From: a virus
Length of the DNA: 21,671 nt
Strand: one strand, 5' to 3'
Virus record (IMG/VR): IMGVR_UViG_3300037189_009596
Location: 1 to 21,671 of that record
Shown here: positions 3,675 through 13,782 of the stretch, one piece after another
Numbering within the stretch: position 1 is the first letter of the stretch
Layout: each line of letters begins with the position of its first letter
Notes under the pieces: generated by a model
What the model was told of the DNA's origin: nothing
The model's database searches: none
What the model saw: the letters and a program-made list of their open reading frames with translations, nothing else
Program-made: the position numbers and the translations under genes

Positions 3675-3693
3675 TAGCTTTTGCTATTTATTT

Positions 3694-3711
3694 TAGCTAT
3701 CGCGTTGGAAT
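3694..3711. repeat. Third, partial copy of the GCTAACGCGTTGGAAT repeat
   Basis: Eighteen bases match the start of the 37-bp repeat at 12128 with one difference (17 of 18). It lies in a short gap between a terminator and the nuclease gene. The other two copies are upstream of the paralogous plus-strand genes more than 8 kb away. Confidence 0.5.
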
Positions 3712-3721
3712 TATTGATAGA

Positions 3722-3763
3722 TAAAAAAAGGGGACAAACTGACATGCCGTCAACTTGTCCCCT
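3722..3763 (-). terminator. Rho-independent terminator built around an operator copy
   Basis: On the minus strand, arms AGGGGACAA (3763-3755) and TTGTCCCCT (3737-3729), plus inner arms TGAC/GTCA, form a long stem, followed by a run of seven T (3729-3723). It ends transcription of the gene at 3791..4654 before the nuclease gene. The inner part of the stem is exactly a copy of the 27-bp dyad site (3733-3759). Confidence 0.85.
3733..3759. promoter_or_regulatory. 27-bp dyad site, copy 1
   Basis: Matches GAC-N4-TGAC-N5-GTCA-N4-GTC at all 14 fixed positions, with spacers aaac, atgcc and actt. It forms the inner stem of the terminator downstream of 3791..4654, so protein binding and termination could interact here. 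Confidence 0.75.
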
Positions 3764-3790
3764 AAAAACGGAAGTTATCGTTGCTGAACG

Positions 3791-4654
3791 TTAACTGGTT
3801 ATGATTATCTCACCGCCTGTTAAGTAATACCAATTGGTATTCTCAATTGAAAACTTAACACCGATAGATTCTACTGGTTGGCTATGTTCTAATATACGGA
3901 GCATAGCTAGCTTAGTCTGATACAACTCTGGTAAAGCATACGTATCCTTAAGACTACGTACACGCGCATCATCAAACAGCTTTGTATCTAGTTCAATACT
4001 TGTTAGTGTACCGTCTCGCTCCTCTCGTATGACAACACCGCTGCCTGATTTAAAATCGTTATCAACAACTGCAGCAATCCTCGCTGTGTTTAGCATCTTA
4101 TCTAAGTTGGGTTGAGCTACAAGCTTATTCAACCCCGCACCAAGGGTTGGCATCTCCCCTCTATGTGTTGCCATAACAAAGTCCATTAGTGGAATAAGAT
4201 ACTCTTCACCTATCCTTTCGGTTTGACGTACTGCGTTGTATCGCACGCCACCTATCTCTGTATTCATCTTCTGTTTAACATGGGCAATAACTTCAGCCGT
4301 AGAGGATGTCGCAGAAAATATCTTCACCGCTACCTTCAATGCTTCAGCATATATCTTACTTACCTTAGAATTGCGTGGCGATATACGGTTCTTAATACGT
4401 GGCGAATATACGGTATATACATTGCTATAGTCACCACCTCTATGCATCTTCCACTCTACGTTAATCTCGCCCACTTTCTCGTTGCCGTTGTACACAACGA
4501 CCCCGCATATACTGTTAGGCTCGCCGTTCATGAACCCTGCGTCTCTCGATAAAAAATTAAGTCTTGGTATCTTGAGATACAACTTAGTGAGTATCTCCTC
4601 CAACGGTGCATACAATGGAAGATCATGGTGATTAGGTATTCTATTTACTTGCAT
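3791..4654 (-). CDS. Hypothetical protein, 287 aa, last gene of the MoxR/VWA cassette
   Basis: The frame opens at 4675, but I chose the ATG at 4654 (MQVNRIPNHHD). It has AAGGGAG six bases upstream and starts just after the stop of the gene before it. The protein is mixed alpha/beta, without cysteine pairs, nucleotide motifs or membrane segments. It has a central charged region and ends in a strand-rich segment. It is the last gene before a strong terminator and follows the DUF3150-like gene, so it belongs to the ATPase/VWA cassette by position. Function unknown. Confidence 0.72.
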   Translation of the reverse strand: MQVNRIPNHHDLPLYAPLEEILTKLYLKIPRLNFLSRDAGFMNGEPNSICGVVVYNGNEKVGEINVEWKMHRGGDYSNVYTVYSPRIKNRISPRNSKVSKIYAEALKVAVKIFSATSSTAEVIAHVKQKMNTEIGGVRYNAVRQTERIGEEYLIPLMDFVMATHRGEMPTLGAGLNKLVAQPNLDKMLNTARIAAVVDNDFKSGSGVVIREERDGTLTSIELDTKLFDDARVRSLKDTYALPELYQTKLAMLRILEHSQPVESIGVKFSIENTNWYYLTGGEIIITS

Positions 4655-4664
4655 GTTGTCTCCC

Positions 4665-5555
4665 TTACCAATCAAATTTAGCTAAGATACTATCGACTTT
4701 CTCTTTAACTTCAGAACGTACTTCTTCGCGTTCCTTGAGATCATCGGTTTCTACATTGCTTATCGCTCTACGTAACTGCGTACGCGCATCTTCCAACTTG
4801 GGGTCGTTCGTTACATTGAGACGACCTAACAAATCCACCAGACTATCCGCATTTGATAGCATCGTATCGTGGAATATCCTACGCTTCCCATCCTGACTAT
4901 CTGTCAGTCTGTCGCTCATGTGCGTAAGACATTCATGCAACCTACCCCATATGTCACGCATGGCTCCATCAAGACGCTGATTGAAATGCTCGGCGTACTG
5001 ATTAGCAAGCTCGGCTTTGGCTTGCTCGTTGATGTCAATGCGGAAGTCTCCTGCTGTCGGCACAGGGCTAACAGAATAGTGAAAGCGAAACTTATGCGCG
5101 ATCTCCTCCACATCGGGATACTCCTCTCGATCAAACAGATCACCCAATTGAAAAGCCGCCGCAGATATTAGCGTTGGGTATTGTTGTAGGAAATTAGCAG
5201 TCAGTTCATCAAAGCTATTCTTATGCACATCCATCTGCGACTTGAACCCATTGAAGAAATGCTCGGCTGTCACGATGCGTTGTCCGTTGTCTGACCACGG
5301 CATAGTGTTCAAGTTATTCCACAAGCGTGTTTGCGCTGCATACTTAACCACCGCTTCAAGCGCGGGGCTACCTGCTAACAGGTGCTTATGGTAGTTACCT
5401 GCTTTCACCTTAGTGTTCTTGGAAGCATCCACTTCCATGCCTACCTTCTTGTCCAGTTTCCTAGCAGTCCAGCAAGATATACTAAGCTCGATAAGCAACG
5501 ATGACGATGCAATACCAAAGGTTTCAAACTTAGGGGTTTCCGTTATAGCGTTCAT
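4665..5555 (-). CDS. DUF3150-like protein, 296 aa
   Basis: The protein has the layout I associate with DUF3150 proteins found beside MoxR and VWA genes in phages and plasmids. It has an N-terminal part with DKKVGMEVDASKNTKVKAG, a middle AEHFFNGFKSQMD, then IAHKFRFHYSVSPVPTAGDFRID and a helical C-terminus rich in D, R and E. The family assignment is from memory of the pattern and no search was run. AAGGAG lies nine bases before the ATG. It follows the VWA gene directly, and the two probably act in one complex. A copy of the 27-bp dyad site lies within the coding sequence (4887-4913), where it encodes DRLTDSQDG. Confidence 0.75.
   Translation of the reverse strand: MNAITETPKFETFGIASSSLLIELSISCWTARKLDKKVGMEVDASKNTKVKAGNYHKHLLAGSPALEAVVKYAAQTRLWNNLNTMPWSDNGQRIVTAEHFFNGFKSQMDVHKNSFDELTANFLQQYPTLISAAAFQLGDLFDREEYPDVEEIAHKFRFHYSVSPVPTAGDFRIDINEQAKAELANQYAEHFNQRLDGAMRDIWGRLHECLTHMSDRLTDSQDGKRRIFHDTMLSNADSLVDLLGRLNVTNDPKLEDARTQLRRAISNVETDDLKEREEVRSEVKEKVDSILAKFDW
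4887..4913. promoter_or_regulatory. 27-bp dyad site, intragenic, three of four boxes
   Basis: TGAC-N5-GTCA-N4-GTC is exact (spacers tatct and gtct) but the left outer box is CCC instead of GAC. It lies inside the DUF3150-like gene. Chance cannot be excluded for this copy alone, though its spacing is exactly that of the family. Confidence 0.5.
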
Positions 5556-5568
5556 TTTTATTTTCTCC

Positions 5569-6843
5569 TTACCCTACATAAATAGATTGACCATACTGCG
5601 GCACAAAGTCTTTGTTACCCACCACACACCACAACACAGGTGCAGATACACGACTCCACTCTTTCCACCCATCACCATAGAACTCACCATCGGTTAGCAT
5701 GATGATGCACTGTGGCGTAATGCTCTTGGCTTCGAGATAGATAGGCACACACTCTGGTTGTGTACCACCACCACCTTTGGGCTTCGTGCTGTTAATAAGG
5801 TTAGCTACTTCTGCATCACGATAAGTTTCGTGGTTTGTTACGTGGCTATCCCAATACAGTAGTTCAACTATCTCAGGCGCAACGTCAAGGCATATAGATT
5901 GAACCTCACCCATGAACTGCGCTGCCATAGCACCGATAGAACCTGATAGATCAACGCCCACAGCAATCGTCCCTGCCCTCTCTGATATAGAACTAGGCAT
6001 GATGATGTCCATACCAAGGAACCTACGGTTAGGTCTACGCCATGTTGATTTGTCACCACCACGTACGCTTGCCTTGACGTACATACGCAATGCTTCTTTC
6101 CAATCAACTCGGGGATGTAGTAGCTCGTCAATACCGCGTGGAACGTTGCCCTTCATTTTCCCTGCTAGAATAGCCCCCTCACGTAACGCGTTGTCGATCT
6201 CCTGAGTTAGCTCATCCTCATCGGCTTTAGATAATTCATTAGCACCTTCCCAATCATGTTCGTCAAAATTCTCTCCGCCACTACCATGATCATTGTGTTT
6301 GCCATTGCCTTGCTTACCACTCGTAGGACTTCCTGACCCACCGTCAGTTTGTCCACCATCGCCGCCTCTGTCGCCACCCTCACACTCCTTCTTGAGTAGC
6401 TCGTAAACTTGCTTGGTATCCATGTCACGATACTTCTCGTCTAGCAAACCGATCATCTTACCTTCGGCGTCGCGTGGCATAGTAACTACCTGACCATTCG
6501 GGTCGGAGTCTACGATCTGTAAGTTAATAACAAAGTCCATAGCTGCGTTGGCTAGGCGTGGGTTCTCTCTAGCTATACCTTTCCATACCGACAAATGACG
6601 GTAGGCTTTGTGCATAGCTTCGTGTACCACGACAAAGGCAAGTTGCTTGTCATCTAGGGAATCAACAAAGGCGCGACCATACGTCACGTCCCTACCGTTA
6701 GTTACTGCAGTTGGTACGCTATCGCTAACCGATACCTTACCCACCATGAACACACCTGAGAACAAACAGAAATCTTTGTTTCTCATTAGCTGTGCATGGG
6801 CACGTTCAACCCGCTTCTCTGCGGATAGTTTTACTGTAGCCAT
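5569..6843 (-). CDS. HExxH metallopeptidase-like protein with VWA domain (DUF2201 type)
   Basis: A 424-residue, two-part protein. The N-terminal domain has a zinc-peptidase motif VVHEAMHKAYRH (H74, E75, H78), followed by LANAAMDFVIN, typical of DUF2201-type predicted metallopeptidases. Residues about 156-190 are a Gly/Ser/Asp-rich linker. The C-terminal domain is VWA-like with a full MIDAS set: DLSGS (D298, S300, S302), GGGGT (T361) and LTDGE (D385). VWA proteins of this kind pair with MoxR ATPases, and a MoxR gene lies two genes upstream. AGGAGG six bases before the ATG fixes the start. The linker hosts a perfect copy of the 27-bp dyad site. The substrate is unknown. Confidence 0.88.
   Translation of the reverse strand: MATVKLSAEKRVERAHAQLMRNKDFCLFSGVFMVGKVSVSDSVPTAVTNGRDVTYGRAFVDSLDDKQLAFVVVHEAMHKAYRHLSVWKGIARENPRLANAAMDFVINLQIVDSDPNGQVVTMPRDAEGKMIGLLDEKYRDMDTKQVYELLKKECEGGDRGGDGGQTDGGSGSPTSGKQGNGKHNDHGSGGENFDEHDWEGANELSKADEDELTQEIDNALREGAILAGKMKGNVPRGIDELLHPRVDWKEALRMYVKASVRGGDKSTWRRPNRRFLGMDIIMPSSISERAGTIAVGVDLSGSIGAMAAQFMGEVQSICLDVAPEIVELLYWDSHVTNHETYRDAEVANLINSTKPKGGGGTQPECVPIYLEAKSITPQCIIMLTDGEFYGDGWKEWSRVSAPVLWCVVGNKDFVPQYGQSIYVG
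6327..6353. promoter_or_regulatory. 27-bp dyad site, perfect copy inside the VWA gene
   Basis: All 14 fixed bases of GAC-N4-TGAC-N5-GTCA-N4-GTC are present (spacers ttcc, ccacc, gttt). It encodes part of the Gly/Ser linker (GQTDGGSGSP), where the protein sequence is loosely constrained, so the DNA site could be kept without harming a fold. Confidence 0.65.
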
Positions 6844-7067
6844 TCTGAACCTCCTGTCGCTTCGGCTTTCTTAAATGTAACGAACCAGTTGAGCAAATCC
6901 TCTGCTACGCTCTTAACAAAATGTTCCTCTGACATGATCTCGTTACTCTGTGATGTAGCTAACAAATAGATAAGGGCAGGGATAACATGCCCCATGTTGG
7001 CCCCATCAATCACGTTACCTATCTTGTCGATTAAGTCGTGAACTACTTTCGAATCGTTATCTTCCAT
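6831..7067 (-). CDS. Hypothetical protein, 78 aa, between MoxR and VWA genes
   Basis: A small acidic helical protein (MEDNDSKVVHDLIDKIGN, later EEHFVKSVAEDLLNWFV). It overlaps the VWA gene start by 13 bp and follows the MoxR gene with a 9-bp gap, and CTAGGAGA lies just upstream of its ATG. No motif is recognisable. Its fixed place between the ATPase and the VWA protein suggests an adaptor or regulator of that pair, inferred from position only. Confidence 0.72.
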   Translation of the reverse strand: MEDNDSKVVHDLIDKIGNVIDGANMGHVIPALIYLLATSQSNEIMSEEHFVKSVAEDLLNWFVTFKKAEATGGSEWLQ

Positions 7068-7076
7068 AACTTTCTC

Positions 7077-8138
7077 CTAGAATAAATATTGGTTCTCACG
7101 CATCCAGTTGACGAACGATGAACTCGTCATCAAGATGTTCTTCTTGTCCTCGTTCTTACTTGTGGTAACACAGAACACAGACTGCAACTCTTTCGGTGTA
7201 CGTTTCAGATACTCGAACCATGCGCTGATGTTGCCGCGATCAATCTTCTGTACTGCGCCATACGCCATGATGCATAACGCTGCTGCGTTGGTAGGTACAC
7301 TCGCACCCTTCGGGTCACGGATAACCTCATCCCATGTTGGCAGCTTGTCTGATACTTCGACATACGCAATCAAGTCACGCGCTGCTGACTCACCAATCGT
7401 GCCGCACAACGATGCCACCAATGCACCTCGCGTAATCATGTGGCGCTTCTTCAATATGTTGCTAGCACGATGACCTGAACGTGGGCAGAAGTAAGAGTTC
7501 TGCGGTGTCTTTGGGTTGTAGATGTAGTTGTTCTCCTTCTGTGTTGGGTCTTTGTAAGACGCCATGACTTGTGGATACTGACGTACGAAAGCCAACAACT
7601 CGGGAGCAAACCCAACGCGAGTACCGTAATCCACATACTCATCCCAATATGGTTTGCGTACGGGAGTAATAGTCATACGACTAATCGAATGACCTTTCAG
7701 CATGTCGCCTACACCATCGGACATATTGTTACCCGCAGTCACTACGATGCTATCAGGATGTAACTTCATGCCACCAATGCGACGCTCGTTCAACAACGGA
7801 TGCAACATGTTCTGTACTGCTTGGCTGCTTGGCTTACTGAACTCGTCGATGAAGATCATCAGCGGCTCTTGCTTATGGAAACCCCAGAACTCGTTCGGAT
7901 ACAGCGATGTTGTCTTGGTCTCATGGTTCGGCATAGGGATACCGATGTCACCTAGCTCGGTATTAGGCGTGTCGATATACACACCACGATAACCAGTTCT
8001 TGCTACTAGTCTTTCATACATGGCTGTTTTACCGATTCCGGGTTCACCTACAAGGTGTACTGCGTTCTCATTACCAACGGCAAGGATAAGTTCTTCTGCT
8101 TCAGCAAGGGATACTTCTACGTTCATACGAATTTCCAT
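7077..8138 (-). CDS. MoxR-like AAA+ ATPase
   Basis: A 353-residue AAA+ ATPase. Walker A is GEPGIGKT (31-38), Walker B is LMIFIDEF (93-100), and a sensor-1 region is IVVTAGNN (131-138). The DIGIPMP segment and the short insertion around helix 2 resemble the MoxR branch, whose members act as chaperone-like motors for VWA-domain partners. The VWA partner lies two genes downstream. The start at 8138 has CTAGGAGA before it. A dyad site lies about 20 bp upstream of the start, in the gap after the preceding gene. It probably remodels a host or virion target, which the sequence does not reveal. Confidence 0.9.
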   Translation of the reverse strand: MEIRMNVEVSLAEAEELILAVGNENAVHLVGEPGIGKTAMYERLVARTGYRGVYIDTPNTELGDIGIPMPNHETKTTSLYPNEFWGFHKQEPLMIFIDEFSKPSSQAVQNMLHPLLNERRIGGMKLHPDSIVVTAGNNMSDGVGDMLKGHSISRMTITPVRKPYWDEYVDYGTRVGFAPELLAFVRQYPQVMASYKDPTQKENNYIYNPKTPQNSYFCPRSGHRASNILKKRHMITRGALVASLCGTIGESAARDLIAYVEVSDKLPTWDEVIRDPKGASVPTNAAALCIMAYGAVQKIDRGNISAWFEYLKRTPKELQSVFCVTTSKNEDKKNILMTSSSFVNWMRENQYLF

Positions 8139-8158
8139 TTTTGTTTCTCCTAGTTATA

Positions 8159-8185
8159 GACTTACTGACACCATGTCAGGTTGTC
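8159..8185. promoter_or_regulatory. 27-bp dyad site upstream of the MoxR gene
   Basis: Perfect 14-of-14 match, with spacers ttac, accat and ggtt. It lies in the 49-bp gap between the 327-residue gene and the MoxR ribosome binding site. The inner arms extend to CTGACA/TGTCAG around a 3-bp centre. It shares its left and central spacers with the copy at 9438. Confidence 0.8.
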
Positions 8186-8187
8186 GT

Positions 8188-9171
8188 TCATACTTCAAAA
8201 GGTAAAGCTTCACCCGAACCGTATTTCAAAAACTTCATGCTATCGTCTAGCACGATCTTGCCTTGTGGTACTACCTCTCTAGTAAACAAGCTCTTCGCAT
8301 AGTAGAAGCGGCACAGATCATAGAAGTGATCTCTCGCTTTGCTAGGCGTGCATGCATACCTGTACTGTTGCATCTTGTAGTCATAGACTTTTTGTGATGC
8401 ATTTACTAACACCTGCTCGGCTAACAGTAGGAACGCGCCATACTTATCTTCCCCAGTTGCTTGCATCGCGTTATGTAACTCCATAAAGAACAATTTCCTA
8501 GACTTAAGATGTCTGTCCTCCGACCACCGTATCTCAGTTACCGTCGTTCCCAACGGCTCAACTGCAGTGATCACAGCCGCTATCCTTGTCTCACCTATCA
8601 TCTGTGCATAGTAAGTTAGGTACTCGGTGAACTCGGCGTAATGCTTCCTGAGTTTCCCCATACGTTCCTTGTTCAATGTCCATGCACTTTCTGTAGCTGT
8701 ACCTGTTACTTCGTTCGTATCACTAAGTTTTAGTACGGACTCAAACCTGTGGTCTTTGCCATGCCCATCAGAGAAATACAGCTTCCCCCGCCGTCTGGTA
8801 ATCCCTGACCACTTCTGCGCTACATGCACATTCACAAGATTATTATTAGGCGGTACTCTAAATCTCGTATACAAAATGGCATTGATGAAGTCCATCGTAG
8901 ATATAGTCTCGTGCCCATCGTGCATCATCAGCACGCTACCGTCCTCGCAGAACATAACTACTGGTGTGCTATGAAACGTACACACGACAATGTTCTGTCC
9001 TTCGCTGTTGGTATCCAACGAAATAAGACTGCGGTCGTATCGACGGTTATCACCAAGCGGACGCAAGCCTTTGCTACGCCCCCTCTTGTACGGTTCCCTT
9101 GTGTGATACCAAGCCAGAGCTTCTTCATACGAATTAAGTCTTGGCAGTTGGTCTCCTGTATATAAAGTCAT
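8188..9171 (-). CDS. Hypothetical protein, 327 aa
   Basis: Starts MTLYTGDQLPRLNSYEEALAWY with GGAGGG six bases upstream, and ATGA overlap with the preceding gene. The first half contains strand-rich segments such as NIVVCTFHSTPVVMF and DGSVLMMHDGHETIST, followed by FINAILYTRF. The second half is helical and rich in Y, R and K. I do not recognise a family, but I have the impression of a conserved phage protein accompanying MoxR cassettes. No catalytic motif can be named. It is probably cotranscribed with the ATPase. Confidence 0.75.
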   Translation of the reverse strand: MTLYTGDQLPRLNSYEEALAWYHTREPYKRGRSKGLRPLGDNRRYDRSLISLDTNSEGQNIVVCTFHSTPVVMFCEDGSVLMMHDGHETISTMDFINAILYTRFRVPPNNNLVNVHVAQKWSGITRRRGKLYFSDGHGKDHRFESVLKLSDTNEVTGTATESAWTLNKERMGKLRKHYAEFTEYLTYYAQMIGETRIAAVITAVEPLGTTVTEIRWSEDRHLKSRKLFFMELHNAMQATGEDKYGAFLLLAEQVLVNASQKVYDYKMQQYRYACTPSKARDHFYDLCRFYYAKSLFTREVVPQGKIVLDDSMKFLKYGSGEALPFEV

Positions 9172-9419
9172 ACTCTACCCTCCGCTTTGCGCTTAATTTC
9201 TTCAGCGATTGTGTTGATAAGAACCTGCACACCAGTAATGACTCCGGCTCGATGTTCAGGCGGTAATGCGTTGATGATTTCATACGCATAGGTGTATGCC
9301 TCCTCAAGGCTGTCTTTGGTAGCAAACAAGGAAGATTGCAAGTTACCTGCCAACTCAACAACTTCTTTCATTTGGTCTACTGCTTCTACTCCTGCTATTT
9401 CTTCACTCCATGTACCCAT
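9168..9419 (-). CDS. Hypothetical acidic protein, 83 aa
   Basis: A helical, acidic protein (MGTWSEEIAGVEAVDQ, then a helix EAYTYAYEIINALPPEHRAG). The start has AGGAGA nearby, and the stop overlaps the next ATG (ATGA). No motif or membrane segment. A perfect dyad site lies just upstream at 9438-9464, so this gene may mark the start of a separately controlled part of the operon. Function unknown. Confidence 0.7.
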   Translation of the reverse strand: MGTWSEEIAGVEAVDQMKEVVELAGNLQSSLFATKDSLEEAYTYAYEIINALPPEHRAGVITGVQVLINTIAEEIKRKAEGRV

Positions 9420-9437
9420 GATGCTTCTCCTAATTGT

Positions 9438-9464
9438 GACTTACTGACACCATGTCAGTTTGTC
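9438..9464. promoter_or_regulatory. 27-bp dyad site upstream of 9168..9419
   Basis: Perfect match, spacers ttac, accat and gttt. The TGA stop of the preceding gene (9455-9457) lies within the site, read from its minus-strand TGAC box. The inner palindrome CTGACA/TGTCAG equals the copy at 8159. Confidence 0.8.
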
Positions 9465-9661
9465 GTTGCGTTTATTTCGTTTATCTCTGCTGTCATGTTA
9501 TTAAATTCACGCGCACGCAGTTGTTGGTTCAAGCGTTTCTGCACTTCGATTACCGGCTCGGCTTTCTTACCAAAGAACCCATACAACAGAGCGTCGCTCT
9601 CGCGTGCCCTGTCGATATCAACTTGCTTACGCAGCTTGTGTGCGTTTCCTTTTGTACCCAT
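9455..9661 (-). CDS. Hypothetical basic protein, 68 aa
   Basis: I chose the ATG at 9661 (MGTKGNAHKLRKQ) over an in-frame TTG at 9673 because the ATG overlaps the stop of the gene upstream and a GGTGAT site precedes it. The protein is charged and helical, with RARESDALLYGFFGKKAEP and a C-terminal coiled-coil-like part. No motif is recognised. Its stop codon sits inside a dyad site. Confidence 0.6.
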   Translation of the reverse strand: MGTKGNAHKLRKQVDIDRARESDALLYGFFGKKAEPVIEVQKRLNQQLRAREFNNMTAEINEINATTN

Positions 9662-9756
9662 CAGATCACCCAATAGGCTAAGATCAAACCAAAGACTGTG
9701 CCCAACAGTCCACCCATAATTGCGGCAAGCATCGCCACCTTTTCATAGTCGTTCAT
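9661..9756 (-). CDS. Small single-pass membrane peptide, 31 aa
   Basis: The frame is open further upstream, but only the ATG at 9756 has a good site (GGAGG six bases before). The 31-residue product starts MNDYEKVAML, followed by a glycine-rich hydrophobic helix (IMGGLLGTVFGLILAYWVI), a clear transmembrane segment. It overlaps by ATGA with another membrane peptide gene upstream. A small holin-like or inhibitory membrane role is imaginable, but the position far from lysis genes gives no support. Confidence 0.6.
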   Translation of the reverse strand: MNDYEKVAMLAAIMGGLLGTVFGLILAYWVI

Positions 9757-9911
9757 TGCTTTCCTCCTTCGTTTAATAAAATACCAACTATTGCACCTGC
9801 GATCACAAGCGTTGCCTGTTGCAGGTATCGTCCGTCTGTGTCCAGACCCCATGCCACCATTACGCAAGCGACTATCGTCGTTGCTACTGTAAAAATGTTG
9901 TCGTTGTTCAT
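9753..9911 (-). CDS. Two-helix membrane peptide, 52 aa
   Basis: Start ATG with GGAGGG upstream, stop overlapping the next ATG. The product has two hydrophobic stretches (about residues 6-22 and 33-47), separated by a polar WGLDTDGRYLQQ turn, so it is probably a hairpin in the inner membrane. It pairs with the 31-residue membrane peptide downstream. The layout recalls small holin-like proteins, but this is a guess from topology. Confidence 0.6.
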   Translation of the reverse strand: MNNDNIFTVATTIVACVMVAWGLDTDGRYLQQATLVIAGAIVGILLNEGGKQ

Positions 9912-9912
9912 C

Positions 9913-10101
9913 TCACCCTCCGTTTAAGTCAGACATTGTTAGAACATCTCGGTAATAGACACGCGCATCCCGCTTGTATACATCCTCGTCAGGGAATAGG
10001 ATGCGTGCGTATCTCTCTGCTGCTAGCTTCGTATCAAAGAACGTTGGGTAATAGCTGTCGTTCTTATCGTTCTCGCCCCACACATACCAGACCTGATTCA
10101 T
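9913..10101 (-). CDS. Hypothetical protein, 62 aa
   Basis: Start at 10101 (MNQVWYVWGENDK) chosen over an upstream in-frame start because GGGAGGTGG precedes it and the ATG overlaps the stop of the gene before (ATGA). The protein is rich in Y, D and R, with FFDTKLAAERYARILFP, and looks like a small alpha/beta fold. No known function. It lies in a chain of overlapping small genes. Confidence 0.65.
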   Translation of the reverse strand: MNQVWYVWGENDKNDSYYPTFFDTKLAAERYARILFPDEDVYKRDARVYYRDVLTMSDLNGG

Positions 10102-10268
10102 ACCACCTCCCAAAAATCGTATATTTCGCTGTCTTGGTCTGTGCATTTATTCATATGGAACTCGTCATACATAAGCTCTCGCGCTTTATCTTCGGACTCA
10201 GCTTCTACCTCGACTGTTTGGTAATACCTGACCACCACTATCCCTCTATACTTTTTGCGTGGCTTCAT
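10098..10268 (-). CDS. DpnD/PcfM-like small protein, 56 aa
   Basis: The ATG has AGGAGG five bases before it. The product begins MKPRKKYRGIVVVRYYQTVE, then VEAESEDKARELMYDEF, then an acidic C-terminus ending in DFWEVV. The VEVEAESEDKA pattern, a beta strand followed by a helix, matches DpnD/PcfM-like small phage and plasmid proteins as I remember them. The function of the family is unknown. Both ends overlap neighbours by ATGA. Confidence 0.6.
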   Translation of the reverse strand: MKPRKKYRGIVVVRYYQTVEVEAESEDKARELMYDEFHMNKCTDQDSEIYDFWEVV

Positions 10269-10504
10269 CTCATCCTCCTGTTACTTGTTATGCCCTTGAC
10301 GATATCAAAGTCATAACCTACGGTGAACAAGTCCAACTGCAGGTTTCTCAGCGTGGTGTTGGCATCGATAAGCATCTCCCTCGCGTTCTGCAGTTGCTCC
10401 GGCGTTGTTTCTGGATGTGCAATAAGCCGCAAGATGTTGCCTAACATGCTCTGATAGCTGTCGTTGATTTTCAGTACGCGCATATCTACGTTTATCCCTT
10501 TCAT
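10265..10504 (-). CDS. Hypothetical protein, 79 aa
   Basis: Starts MKGINVDMRVLKINDSYQ, with GAGG before the ATG and overlap with the preceding stop. The middle is a helical hairpin (TTPEQLQNAREMLIDANTTL). No cysteine, nucleotide-binding or membrane motif. An alternative start is Met8. The N-terminal strand followed by helices made me consider a ribbon-helix-helix regulator, but the spacing of the helices does not support it. Function unknown. Confidence 0.65.
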   Translation of the reverse strand: MKGINVDMRVLKINDSYQSMLGNILRLIAHPETTPEQLQNAREMLIDANTTLRNLQLDLFTVGYDFDIVKGITSNRRMR

Positions 10505-10713
10505 GTTGTCCTCTTTGGGTTGAGTTGTTTTAGTGTTTCCATACTACTAATGTAGTAGTAGTTGGACTTGTTCAGCGGTGCGATGCAATGCTTGACCTGC
10601 TTGGCTGCAGCTTCCCCGCATGGTTTGCATAGCTTGTAACCAAGAGCGTATCTCGCATGGTCGATGTACCCACCACATACAACGCACAAATACCGTGCAT
10701 CTTCATTGCTCAT
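10501..10713 (-). CDS. Small zinc-ribbon protein, 70 aa
   Basis: Start at 10713 (MSNEDARYLC) chosen over an open frame reaching 10776 because GAGGAG precedes it and it overlaps the stop of the gene before. Two CxxC pairs (C10/C13 and C29/C32) in CVVCGGY and CKPCGE should bind one zinc ion. The part between them, RYALGYKLC, resembles RLAYGHTVC in the gene upstream, so the two may be related. Such proteins could bind nucleic acid or host proteins, but the role is unknown. Confidence 0.68.
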   Translation of the reverse strand: MSNEDARYLCVVCGGYIDHARYALGYKLCKPCGEAAAKQVKHCIAPLNKSNYYYISSMETLKQLNPKRTT

Positions 10714-10858
10714 TTGATATCTCCTCAATGTTGTGCTTCTTGGTGCATGTGACGCATACGGTGTGACCATACGCAAGTCGTTTTTTACCTACGCTGTTGA
10801 CCAAGCAGATTCGGCATCTGCCTACGCTTGGTCGTAGCTTCTTCTTTTGTTTAGACAT
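10703..10858 (-). CDS. Small zinc-ribbon protein, 51 aa
   Basis: A 51-residue basic protein starting MSKQKKKLRPSVGRC with two CxxC pairs (C15/C18 and C35/C38), so a zinc ribbon is likely. Its start overlaps the end of the gene at 10851..11033, and its ribosome binding site (GGTGG) lies within the centre of a dyad site (10854-10880). The start codon also overlaps that site. The sequence around RLAYGHTVC resembles the next gene's zinc ribbon, suggesting a local duplication. Confidence 0.65.
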   Translation of the reverse strand: MSKQKKKLRPSVGRCRICLVNSVGKKRLAYGHTVCVTCTKKHNIEEISNEQ

Positions 10859-11033
10859 CCTGACCACCTGTCAGCTTGTCATTGTTCTTGTGGTACTTAT
10901 CGGCAGCGAGTAGAACTCTGCCTTGTGCAATAAGTAAGTGCTGTAGTTCTTCCCATGCCCTCATGTACTCGACGCGGGGCGTTGCGGGGTTATCTACGAT
11001 ACGTTGCAAGTAAGAGATGTAATTAATAGACAT
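10851..11033 (-). CDS. Hypothetical protein, 60 aa, first gene of the leftward operon
   Basis: The first gene after the consensus promoter at 11093-11121. It starts MSINYISYLQRIVDNP and is mostly helical, with a central WEELQHLLIAQGRVLLAAD. The ATG follows GGAGG, which lies in the centre of a dyad site, and the last residues (DKLTGGQDV) are encoded by the next dyad site. No motif is recognised. Being first in the operon it would be made early. Confidence 0.65.
   Translation of the reverse strand: MSINYISYLQRIVDNPATPRVEYMRAWEELQHLLIAQGRVLLAADKYHKNNDKLTGGQDV
10854..10880. promoter_or_regulatory. 27-bp dyad site over the start of 10703..10858
   Basis: Perfect match, spacers atcc, cacct and gctt. 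On the minus strand the central 5 bp are AGGTG, part of the ribosome binding site, and the last GTC box contains the G of the ATG plus the next two bases. It also encodes the last nine residues of the gene upstream. Confidence 0.8.
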
Positions 11034-11055
11034 GTTGACCCTCCGTCAGATTGTC
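11029..11055. promoter_or_regulatory. 27-bp dyad site over the start of 10851..11033
   Basis: Perfect match, spacers atgt, cctcc and gatt. On the minus strand the central GGAGG is the ribosome binding site, and the final GTC box includes the G of the ATG. It lies about 30-57 bp downstream of the expected transcription start of the leftward promoter. Confidence 0.8.
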
Positions 11056-11092
11056 GTGGTTACGTTAGGGGCGAAGTCCCACTAACCCCTCT

Positions 11093-11121
11093 ATTATAAC
11101 ATAGAAACTATACAATGTCAA
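11093..11121 (-). promoter_or_regulatory. Perfect sigma70 consensus promoter of the leftward operon
   Basis: On the minus strand: TTGACA (11121-11116), 17-bp spacer, TATAAT (11098-11093). Both hexamers match the sigma70 consensus and the spacing is optimal. It drives the leftward operon starting with the gene at 10851..11033. About 30 bp of leader follow before the dyad site at 11029-11055. Confidence 0.88.
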
Positions 11122-11282
11122 GTGATTGTCCTACTTCTAAAGCCCTTGTATATTGCAAAACTTTTTAGTTTAGGGTGGCAGGGGTGGCAACTTGCGCGGA
11201 ACTTAACCACTTTGCTTTTAGTGTATCGAGAAGGGTTGTAGTGAGCTACATGAGCCTGCAATATGCGTGTTGTCGTTTTTGC

Positions 11283-11702
11283 TATTGTTCGAAAATAGCG
11301 GGGTAATGTTCTGTATTTTTGGTTTTTTAGAACAATTGACTTTTTGCTATTGTTCGAAAATGTACCTATTGTTCCTTGTCAAAAAGAAATAATAGAACAA
11401 TAGAACCCAATGTTTATGCGGATTGTACGTAATGTACCTAATGTTCTATGTTTTAAAGATAGAGAGAGCGGAGCTAAAAAATTTGTATGCTTTTAGAACG
11501 ACACTTGCCGATGAGCGCGTTCGAAATAAAAAATCCGTACATACTGAAAAATGCCGGAACATTAGAACATTTCAGAACAATTAACAAAATTTTGATAACA
11601 TTTTAGGACAAAGTTCAATGTAATCAATGGGTTAGCTGCATTTTATAATGTTCGAAAATTTCATTGTAATGTTCTATATTTTTGGGTTTTTCGAACAATA
11701 GG
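11283..11702. repeat. Iteron-like array of 17 GTTC/GAAC boxes (possible origin or operator array)
   Basis: A non-coding, AT-rich stretch of about 420 bp between the divergent operons. GTTC or its complement GAAC occurs 17 times, starting at 11287, 11308, 11330, 11352, 11371, 11395, 11403, 11443, 11496, 11519, 11557, 11565, 11575, 11613, 11650, 11671 and 11694. Most have the wider form WTGTTCnA or its complement. Many successive boxes are 19-24 bp apart, about two helical turns. The first three and the last three form a 55-bp direct repeat with about 45 identical positions. An iteron-type origin or a multi-site operator would look like this. The rest of the 590-bp gap (11122-11282) holds nothing I recognise. 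Confidence 0.65.
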
Positions 11703-11714
11703 GTAAAAAAGTGC

Positions 11715-11757
11715 TTGACAAGTTTAAATAAAAAACTTAAGCTGCGTTGCAGCTTAA
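11715..11757 (+). promoter_or_regulatory. Putative -35 and perfect palindrome upstream of the HNH gene
   Basis: TTGACA (11715-11720) is followed by a 21-bp palindrome (arms TTAAGCTGC 11737-11745 and GCAGCTTAA 11749-11757, centre GTT), which sits where a -10 would fall. No good -10 is visible at 16-18 bp spacing. The palindrome could be an operator over the promoter or an mRNA hairpin just before the ribosome binding site AAAGGA. No T-run follows, so it is not a terminator. Confidence 0.4.
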
Positions 11758-11771
11758 CTAAAAGGACGCGT

Positions 11772-12074
11772 ATGCCATTCATACCTGAGCGCCTTAGGCT
11801 GGAGTTAATCCGAGCCGAAGTAACTAAGCGGGACAAGCGCACCTGCCAATATTGCGGTAAGAAGAGTCTTAGGGGGCGAAGCCTCCATCTTGACCATGTT
11901 CATCCTGAAGCCGAAGGGGGTGAGTTTGTGGTATCTAATTTAGTTGTAGCTTGTGCCCAATGTAATTTTAGAAAGGGTAAGCGATCTGCAACTACCTACG
12001 CTGAAAGCCGCCTCAAACAATTAGATGTTGAACGAGCCATGCTTTTGAATATCCTAGACAACAAGACAGACTGA
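11772..12074 (+). CDS. HNH endonuclease
   Basis: A 100-residue HNH protein. The start at 11772 (MPFIPERLRLE) has AAAGGA upstream. An open frame extends further but lies in the AT-rich control region. Motifs are CQYCGKK (C25, C28), LHLDHVHP (D41, H42), SNLVVACAQCN (N56, C61, C64, N65) and KGK. These form the beta-beta-alpha-metal nuclease fold with a structural zinc. It is the first rightward gene, opposite the leftward operon. Small HNH proteins near terminase genes can assist DNA packaging, while others are selfish homing enzymes. Neither can be told from sequence alone. The stop codon TGA lies within a dyad site. Confidence 0.92.
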   Translation: MPFIPERLRLELIRAEVTKRDKRTCQYCGKKSLRGRSLHLDHVHPEAEGGEFVVSNLVVACAQCNFRKGKRSATTYAESRLKQLDVERAMLLNILDNKTD

Positions 12075-12091
12075 CACGATGTCAAAATGTC
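12065..12091. promoter_or_regulatory. 27-bp dyad site at the end of the HNH gene
   Basis: Perfect match, spacers agac, acgat and aaat. The stop codon of the HNH gene (TGA 12072-12074) is the first part of its TGAC box. Confidence 0.75.
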
Positions 12092-12127
12092 GCGTAGGGA
12101 ACTCTCCCGTGCCTTCTCCCCAATTAG

Positions 12128-12164
12128 TAGCTAACGCGTTGGAATGACCGTTCCCTGCCCAAAA
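12128..12164 (+). repeat. 37-bp direct repeat, copy 1
   Basis: The same 37 bp occurs at 12925-12961 with two differences (35 of 37 identical), 797 bp away. It holds GGAAtgaccgTTCC, a small inverted repeat. Each copy lies about 50-120 bp upstream of the promoter of one of the two paralogous genes. Confidence 0.8.
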
Positions 12165-12215
12165 AAGCAAGGACACTCTCACTATTGCAATATCAAAAGC
12201 CATAGATACAATCAA

Positions 12216-12245
12216 TTGGATATTATCGTAGGAAAATAATAGTAT
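12216..12245 (+). promoter_or_regulatory. Promoter of 12297..12869
   Basis: TTGGAT (12216-12221), 18-bp spacer, TAGTAT (12240-12245). The spacer contains CGTAGGAAAA, also present in the promoter of the paralogue at 13044-13072. The dyad site starts 8 bp after the -10. Confidence 0.6.
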
Positions 12246-12252
12246 TGATTCT

Positions 12253-12279
12253 GACGTAATGACATCGGGTCGTTATGTC
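12253..12279. promoter_or_regulatory. 27-bp dyad site downstream of the -10 of 12297..12869
   Basis: All four GAC/GTC boxes are present at the right spacing (spacers gtaa, atcgg, ttat), with GTCG in place of GTCA. It should cover the transcription start, a position expected for repression. Confidence 0.75.
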
Positions 12280-12296
12280 TTAACTAGGAGAAATAA

Positions 12297-12869
12297 ATGA
12301 GTGCAAGTAAATCAGGCGAAATGTTCGCTCGTAGTGAGATTGATGCGGTTGAATCCCTTGAAGTTTTTGCTCGCGAAGTAGGAACCGAGCCAACCTATGA
12401 AACGTGGCAAGCCGCTCGGGTCGAATTCATCAACGGTTATGTATTCGTCAAACCACAGGCGAAAGGCGATGCATCCGACCAAGCGTTTAAGCGGTTCAAA
12501 GATAGACTGGTAGAACGATTCGGTGTCGTAGTACCAAAAGCCACAAGTGAAGGCGCTATCAAAAAAGCCGCCGAGCGTAAAGAGAAAGAGGATAAGTTAA
12601 TCACCAAGTACGCTGACGCAACCGCAACTGTATTACGCTCACAGATTGAGGCTTGCTATCAAACACTAGCCAAAAATCCTGATAGCAAGGTAGCGAAAGC
12701 CCAAGCCGCTGAACTGGCGAAGGTATTGAAGATCAAAACCCGCGACACCGAGAAAGCCGAGCGTGACGAGATCAAGGAACTACGCAACGAAGCGATAGCC
12801 GAGATCAAAGCTTGTACAAGTATTGAGTGTTTAGAACGAGTAATTGAAGTATTGATTCAATACCAGTAA
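12297..12869 (+). CDS. Hypothetical protein, 190 aa, paralogue of 13141..13782
   Basis: Starts MSASKSGEMFARS with AGGAGA before the ATG. The N-terminal half has EVGTEPTYETWQAARVEFINGYV and FKRFKDRLVERFGVVVPKA. The rest is a long charged, probably coiled-coil region with a CYQTLAKNP segment and a helical C-terminus. It is clearly paralogous to the next gene (GT-P-T/Y/F-W-A-RV-GYV, VxPKA, YQTLAKNP). No known fold or function. It forms an independent unit with its own promoter, operator and terminator, like a moron. Confidence 0.8.
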   Translation: MSASKSGEMFARSEIDAVESLEVFAREVGTEPTYETWQAARVEFINGYVFVKPQAKGDASDQAFKRFKDRLVERFGVVVPKATSEGAIKKAAERKEKEDKLITKYADATATVLRSQIEACYQTLAKNPDSKVAKAQAAELAKVLKIKTRDTEKAERDEIKELRNEAIAEIKACTSIECLERVIEVLIQYQ

Positions 12870-12885
12870 TAAACCCCGACCAACC

Positions 12886-12915
12886 AACCCCGCCTAATCA
12901 GCGGGGTTTTTTATT
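12886..12915 (+). terminator. Rho-independent terminator after 12297..12869
   Basis: Arms AACCCCGC (12886-12893) and GCGGGGTT (12901-12908) around a 7-base loop, followed by a T-run (TTTTTTATT). It closes the first paralogue unit. Confidence 0.92.
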
Positions 12916-12924
12916 GCCCAAAAG

Positions 12925-12961
12925 TGGCTAATGCGTTGGAATGACCGTTCCCTGCCCAAAA
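12925..12961 (+). repeat. 37-bp direct repeat, copy 2
   Basis: Thirty-five of 37 bases match 12128-12164. It starts 10 bp after the terminator of the first unit, upstream of the promoter of the second paralogue. It supports duplication of the whole unit, from repeat to terminator. Confidence 0.8.
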
Positions 12962-13043
12962 TCTATCAGTTTGGCTGGGTTGATAGCGAAAACCTAAATC
13001 CCAAAAAAGACAAAATGACAACAAAAAATAATTTAAATATTTC

Positions 13044-13072
13044 TTGCTATTAGCGTAGGAAAACGCGATAAT
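13044..13072 (+). promoter_or_regulatory. Promoter of 13141..13782
   Basis: TTGCTA (13044-13049), 17-bp spacer with CGTAGGAAAA, GATAAT (13067-13072). It is a good sigma70-type promoter, better than that of the first paralogue. The dyad site begins 6 bp downstream of the -10. Confidence 0.65.
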
Positions 13073-13077
13073 CATAG

Positions 13078-13104
13078 AACTTAATGACGTAGGGTCATTG
13101 AGTC
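13078..13104. promoter_or_regulatory. 27-bp dyad site downstream of the -10 of 13141..13782
   Basis: TGAC-N5-GTCA and the right GTC are exact (spacers ttaa, gtagg, ttga), and the left outer box is AAC in place of GAC. It lies at the expected transcription start. Confidence 0.75.
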
Positions 13105-13140
13105 AGACCAGACCGGTCGATCAACTCAGGAGAAATAAAG

Positions 13141-13782
13141 ATGGAAAAGCAAATCATAGCGGAGCAAGTCTCCGCATTATCAGCCGATCAGGTATTAACA
13201 GCAAGAGACGCGGGTTTTCAATTCGCACGTAATCAGTTAGCTAATCTGGAGACAGCGAAAGGATATGCTAGCATGCTAGGGACAAATCCTACATTCGATC
13301 AGTGGGAAGCAGGTCGGGTTAGTTGGGTATCAGGTTACGTTGAAGCAAATCCAGACAATACCGGAAACGCAGCCGACAAGGCATGGAATCGTTTTGCGGG
13401 TTTACTTGACGAGTTATTTGGTCTGGTTAAACCGAAAGCGGTATCAGTTGCAGCCGAGAAAAAGCGGATTGAACGCGAAAAGAAAACCGTCGAGATACTT
13501 GCAAAGCATGGAGACTTGACGCCGACCATGATCCGCGCTCAGATGGAAGCAGCATATCAAACGCTAGCCAAGAATCCCACTAACAAGGAAGCAGCAAAAC
13601 AAGTCAAAGAACTTGATAAGGTTTTGAAAGTGAAACAATCCGCCGAGAACAAAGAACATGGGGAAGAACTAAAAACCCTTCGCGGAGCGGTAAAGATTGA
13701 AGCGGGTAAATGCACCGACCTTGATCTACTTCAAACAATTCTCGACATGTTGGTTGAAGCGATACCAACCGATAAACTCTAA
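13141..13782 (+). CDS. Hypothetical protein, 213 aa, paralogue of 12297..12869
   Basis: The ATG has AGGAGA eight bases before it. The product starts MEKQIIAEQVSALSADQV, then GTNPTFDQWEAGRVSWVSGYV, FAGLLDELFGLVKPKA, a lysine/glutamate-rich helix, AAYQTLAKNP and a helical C-terminus. It is longer than its paralogue at the N-terminus. No fold or function recognised. The duplication has kept the promoter, operator and terminator plan, which suggests that the regulation matters as much as the protein. Confidence 0.82.
   Translation: MEKQIIAEQVSALSADQVLTARDAGFQFARNQLANLETAKGYASMLGTNPTFDQWEAGRVSWVSGYVEANPDNTGNAADKAWNRFAGLLDELFGLVKPKAVSVAAEKKRIEREKKTVEILAKHGDLTPTMIRAQMEAAYQTLAKNPTNKEAAKQVKELDKVLKVKQSAENKEHGEELKTLRGAVKIEAGKCTDLDLLQTILDMLVEAIPTDKL

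Follow-up and report, generated by a model that had tools for sequence, protein, structure and literature searches.

The window, a 21,671-base IMG/VR record, is contained in the 65,563-base record G001 with 99.99% identity. When the proteins of 29 records or loci were clustered, a single phage family emerged whose members share an early module, in the order p190 copies, control region, small genes (including one for a zinc protein), p327, MoxR ATPase, vWA/DUF2201, p296 and p294. The module was represented in the window by the following features:

3791..4675, minus strand: p294, final gene of the site-bearing module
4665..5555, minus strand: p296, module core gene
5569..6843, minus strand: vWA/DUF2201 protein, module core gene
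7077..8138, minus strand: MoxR-type AAA ATPase, module core gene
8188..9171, minus strand: p327, module core gene
11093..11121, minus strand: predicted early promoter, 12/12 sigma-70 match, TTGACA-17-TATAAT extended by a TG ahead of the -10 box
12297..12869, plus strand: p190 copy 1, all-helical by prediction, with a site in its leader
13141..13782, plus strand: p190 copy 2, paralogue of copy 1

The MoxR ATPase and vWA/DUF2201 genes (5569-8138) formed the conserved core of the module together with p294, p296 and p327. p190 was a lysine-rich early protein present in two copies and unmatched in cultured phages, with a strong hairpin resembling an intrinsic terminator after each of them (12297-13782). 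An element close to GGCTACCGCGTTGGAATGACCGTTCC was found at 12126-12164 and 12923-12961, with a diverged copy at 3692-3730, and a similar element was conserved before the p190 genes, ahead of the promoter, in most relatives. A mostly non-coding region of about 600 bp (~11150-11750) was rich in TGTTC/GAACA words, with 13 in G001 compared to a mean of 1.4 per 600 bp; it lay mid-array in most relatives, and is possibly a replication origin or a second operator cluster. Additionally, G001 carried a gene for a 2,543-aa protein at 46797-54428, after the replication genes.

Dispersed over this module were copies of the dyad GAC-N4-TGAC-N5-GTCA-N4-GTC. An earlier note on this DNA had claimed ten of them, all of which were found at the coordinates it gave, and they are listed here without strand:

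3733..3759: site 1, perfect; between p294 and a VRR-NUC-like gene
4887..4913: site 2, two mismatches, with loss of the outer left box; within p296
6327..6353: site 3, perfect; within the vWA/DUF2201 gene, in the part coding for a Gly/Ser/Thr linker
8159..8185: site 4, perfect; in the gap between p327 and MoxR, 20 nt upstream of the MoxR start
9438..9464: site 5, perfect; overlapping the end of a 72-aa gene, 18 nt upstream of where an 83-aa gene starts
10854..10880: site 6, perfect; in the last codons of a 60-aa ORF
11029..11055: site 7, perfect; at about +31 to +57 relative to the predicted early promoter
12065..12091: site 8, perfect; overlapping the stop codon of an HNH gene
12253..12279: site 9, single mismatch; 17 nt upstream of the p190 copy 1 start
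13078..13104: site 10, single mismatch; 36 nt upstream of the p190 copy 2 start, directly after a GATAAT box

Seven copies (3733, 6327, 8159, 9438, 10854, 11029, and 12065) kept all 14 fixed bases, as had been reported, while those at 12253 and 13078 lacked one base each and that at 4887 lacked two, its outer GAC reading CCC. The four subsites GAC, GAC, GTC, and GTC started at positions 1, 9, 17, and 25, consistent with the 8-bp spacing described before, and the chance of a perfect match per window (∼21,600/4^14 = 8e-5) agreed in order of magnitude with the previous estimate of one in 10,000. When up to three mismatches were allowed, 12 matches were detected in the window, two of them self-overlaps shifted by 8 bp, against 0.71 in dinucleotide-preserving shuffles (maximum of 4 among 100 shuffles). 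In G001, 11 matches were found at ≤2 mismatches, every one within 24.2-33.6 kb, a span of 9.4 kb, and the structural arm was devoid of sites in this record as well as in the window, where their absence had been noted earlier. The site is larger than first described, comprising GACA, CTGAC and preferences in the flanks. The half-site consensus was (R)(S)GACA-W-N-C-TGAC-R, with R and S being preferences just outside. Beyond the dyad letters, the flanks were unrelated among copies and no conserved element stood at a fixed distance. At 3729-3763 (minus strand), the site at 3733 was extended into a near-perfect hairpin with a T tail, resembling an intrinsic terminator, after the p294 gene.

Many sites were located at gene junctions, with a minority inside genes, and their range extended from the p190 genes to just past p294, with none beyond. 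Of 161 left-arm sites, 71 had an ATG at site positions 23-25, not all of these being start codons, and the TGA of CTGAC served as a stop codon in several sites. The centre of site 7 (11029) formed the GGAGG of a ribosome-binding site, and the same site carried the start ATG of the 60-aa ORF. Among the vWA homologues, 18 of 28 had a site ∼500 nt from the gene start, in a variable linker; other records were missing the vWA copy and had array copies elsewhere. Coverage by the array, rather than one exact place, therefore seems to be conserved.

The predicted early promoter was the sole match of 11-12/12 per record in G001, G003, G009, G002, and G015, and the remaining records had a few extra matches of this quality, mostly with 16-bp spacing and no TG. 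In 20 of the 21 promoter-bearing records, the first site started at +29 to +70 from the predicted transcription start, compared to 1.1 expected, a count that does not represent 20 independent events because the records are related. This first site lay downstream of the promoter with no overlap, and further copies followed along the early operon at about one per kb; the majority of sites did not overlap a promoter. In three records of one clade, here called clade B, the TATAAT of a p190 promoter ended 8 nt before a site; outside clade B, the link between -10 box and site at p190 promoters was not above background.

An array of 2-11 copies was detected in more than 20 related uncultured phages, in the same early module. 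The earlier note had made its reading depend on close relatives having copies at the same places; relatives do carry the sites, partly at the same gene junctions. In the search of whole records, related records had 2-11 copies and unrelated ones mostly one, with 0-1 per record for reversed-pattern controls; these records are metagenomic and mutually related, and the counts are not independent events. Among the matches listed in an exact scan of IMG/VR, many contigs had clustered copies and others had single copies. No array was found in five cultured phages related by their terminases (HTVC027P, HTVC023P, 023Pt_psg01, DSL-LC04, and MinM2; terminases 48-56% identical), and p190, p294 and the site region had no match among 50,697 phage records. 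The 18-base core was matched only 11 times, at isolated positions, in bacterial and archaeal genomes totalling 257 Gb, with ∼4 expected from base counts alone, and no arrays occurred in 84,980 species genomes. Since the core occurs only singly there, no host regulon is visible. The array is thus real, conserved, and new to the phage records searched.

Clade B (G006, G007, and G008) differed in the sites themselves. Nearly all of them read GAC-N4-TTAC-N5-GTAA-N4-GTC, not TGAC/GTCA, with one mixed TCAC/GTAA site in each of the three records, and mixed TGAC/TTAC sites were also present in G014 and G067. Such a clade-wide switch is as predicted if a sequence-specific protein were to co-evolve with its array.

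The search for this protein covered several candidates. In 20 records, RHH_1 had no match at E 0.05 and ParB_N had none; with the former result, and with subsites that are not met-box palindromes, the ribbon-helix-helix regulator of MetJ type proposed earlier has no support. A search confined to tyrosine integrases likewise gave no match in 20 records, among which were fragments, and no repressor of L5 type was found. With no integrase found, what normally accounts for arrays of this kind, a prophage repressor, seems to be lacking. The only recognisable DNA-binding protein of the core, present in all near-complete records, was the following:

G001 43381-43623 (L136:3381-3623): 80-aa HTH protein, recognition helix almost invariant

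This protein was not favoured as the binder, its recognition helix being unchanged in clade B despite the switched sites; it might bind the TGTTC cluster. The AlphaFold model of p190, another candidate binder, was all-helical and had no convincing fold match, and the protein has a conserved basic stretch. The model of p294 gave no convincing fold match either. HTH183 matched PHROGs families annotated as 'nucleotide kinase' and was missing from many records.

Taken together, the dyads are putative operators; the one sequence-specific protein that would recognise them, most likely a phage product, would act on early transcription units. We give this reading a probability of about 0.6. It is favoured because the sites follow the early promoter, stay in the early module and were switched together in one clade. 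Against it count the negative searches for RHH_1, ParB_N and integrase, the unchanged helix of the 80-aa HTH protein in clade B and the lack of promoter overlap at most sites. The proposal that a regulator silences or times the early genes was accordingly the best supported of the earlier readings (promoter link in 20 of 21 records, module confinement, clade switch), and stands in part. A symmetric oligomer could bind each site, either as two subunits each reading GACA-N4-TGAC or as four placed 8 bp apart. Bound in the leader and within the operon, the protein would halt RNA polymerase, and this halt would shut off the early genes or hold them down after a first wave; at the start of the p190 units, the bound protein may repress initiation. 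A broader scenario, which we put forward tentatively and hold to be less probable than its negation, is that a phage family of apparently virulent lifestyle relies on a stoperator-like array, read by a DNA-binding protein of a new kind, to time its early operon or shut it off in the absence of lysogeny, and that one clade recoded the whole array.

The main rival to DNA operators is an RNA element, because obligatory loops would also yield reduced complementarity. The site would then act as a hairpin in early mRNA, with GACA and CUGAC stems, a 2x2 internal loop and a 5-nt loop, and would serve antitermination, processing or translational control from the leader and from repeats along the transcript. 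Sites do occur in the early transcript's leader and are partly oriented relative to transcription, position 12 being A in 61% on the sense side versus 19% in the mirror, although this orientation is weak and the bias at position 23 was largely due to the overlapping ATG. A first, unstratified pair test gave an excess at 7/21, which was gone once right halves were shuffled among sites of the same genome: complementarity was then 78 observed versus 78.3 expected at 7/21 and 124 versus 124.0 at 9/19 (z ∼0), with no compensatory stem changes at either pair. The pairs 5/23, 6/22, and 12/16 were less complementary than expected (z of -2.8, -4.1, and -3.0), as would fit obligatory loops, and the two halves of one site were less alike than random half pairs from the same genome. 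The stem letters were fixed rather than covarying, the inner stem was broken in 47 of 131 sites (7 of these mid-stem), and scans with Rfam and for tRNAs gave no matches. Independent variation at paired positions and avoidance of complementarity at free ones speak against an RNA stem, and for want of covariation it was rejected as the main reading; we regard it as unlikely. The simplest reading is that each half would be read independently in DNA, with extra hairpin potential selected against.

Other roles for a DNA site were less probable still. The array could organise DNA near the origin-like TGTTC/GAACA cluster, for partition, replication control or compaction rather than transcription. In most records it flanks the 600-bp region, which has ∼10-18 of these words compared to means of 1.2-2.6, and phage N15 provides a precedent for dispersed centromere sites. 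However, the sites follow the early operon and end with it, the first is positioned relative to the promoter, and neither a ParB_N match nor an integrase or other sign of stable maintenance was seen; DNA partition, as suggested earlier, thus obtained no positive support, and a role in DNA organisation appears rather improbable. The binder could also come from the host, as a transcription factor or nucleoid protein exploited or evaded by the phage, in line with the phage binder searches (RHH_1, ParB_N, HTH) that gave none. Yet the species genomes contained isolated matches only, and the clade-wide switch would require a change to a host with an altered factor, which makes this quite improbable. 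Placement near gene starts and the weak orientation would suit phage-specific promoters or elements for a phage-modified RNA polymerase, but sites occur within genes and after good sigma-70 promoters, and a fixed-distance element outside the dyad is lacking, so there is very little to expect from this explanation. Functionless copies of a mobile palindromic repeat would account for the many copies, some within coding sequence. This is scarcely credible for repeats that share the dyad letters alone, are absent outside the early module, were kept through deep divergence and were switched together in one clade.

Putative operators of this layout invite comparison with the L5-type (cluster A) mycobacteriophages, in which 20-30 dispersed operator/stoperator sites for one regulator occupy promoters and short intergenic gaps, for the most part in one orientation to transcription, and the motif diverges with phage clade; the sites are asymmetric and 13 bp long, and the binder is a monomer with two DNA-binding domains (PMC6550527, PMC9283540). 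The array resembles L5 stoperators in having a putative operator near an early promoter, copies along the operon in gene gaps, and a clade-specific motif, and differs from them in its 27-bp dyads, its confinement to one early module and the lack of a recognisable repressor or integrase. The parallel with L5 drawn earlier therefore holds for the layout and fails for the site and the protein. Because site architecture and gene content differ, we consider that the array probably works like L5 stoperators without being a member of that group.

The c1 operators of phage P1, a temperate phage-plasmid, are asymmetric 17-mers present in many copies over the genome and bound by one repressor. The multi-copy operator is shared with P1, while the sites described here cluster in early genes and show symmetry. 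MetJ recognises met boxes, palindromic AGACGTCT units with 8-bp spacing. The likeness lies in the 8-bp subsite spacing and the GAC/GTC letters, but in the present site a direct pair of GAC subsites is opposed to a pair of GTC subsites, and there are no palindromic 8-bp tandem boxes. In phage N15, a few inverted-repeat centromere sites bound by SopB are scattered over early and replication genes; scattered inverted repeats are common to both systems, whereas here no ParB-type protein was found and placement follows the early promoter and operon. The natural switch from TGAC to TTAC could serve directly to identify the protein and the residues that set its specificity. Most known dispersed roadblock operators come from temperate phages. 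If our reading is true, the symmetric sites kept as an array by a large family of uncultured phages without visible lysogeny genes would imply that lytic phages also time their early genes in this way.
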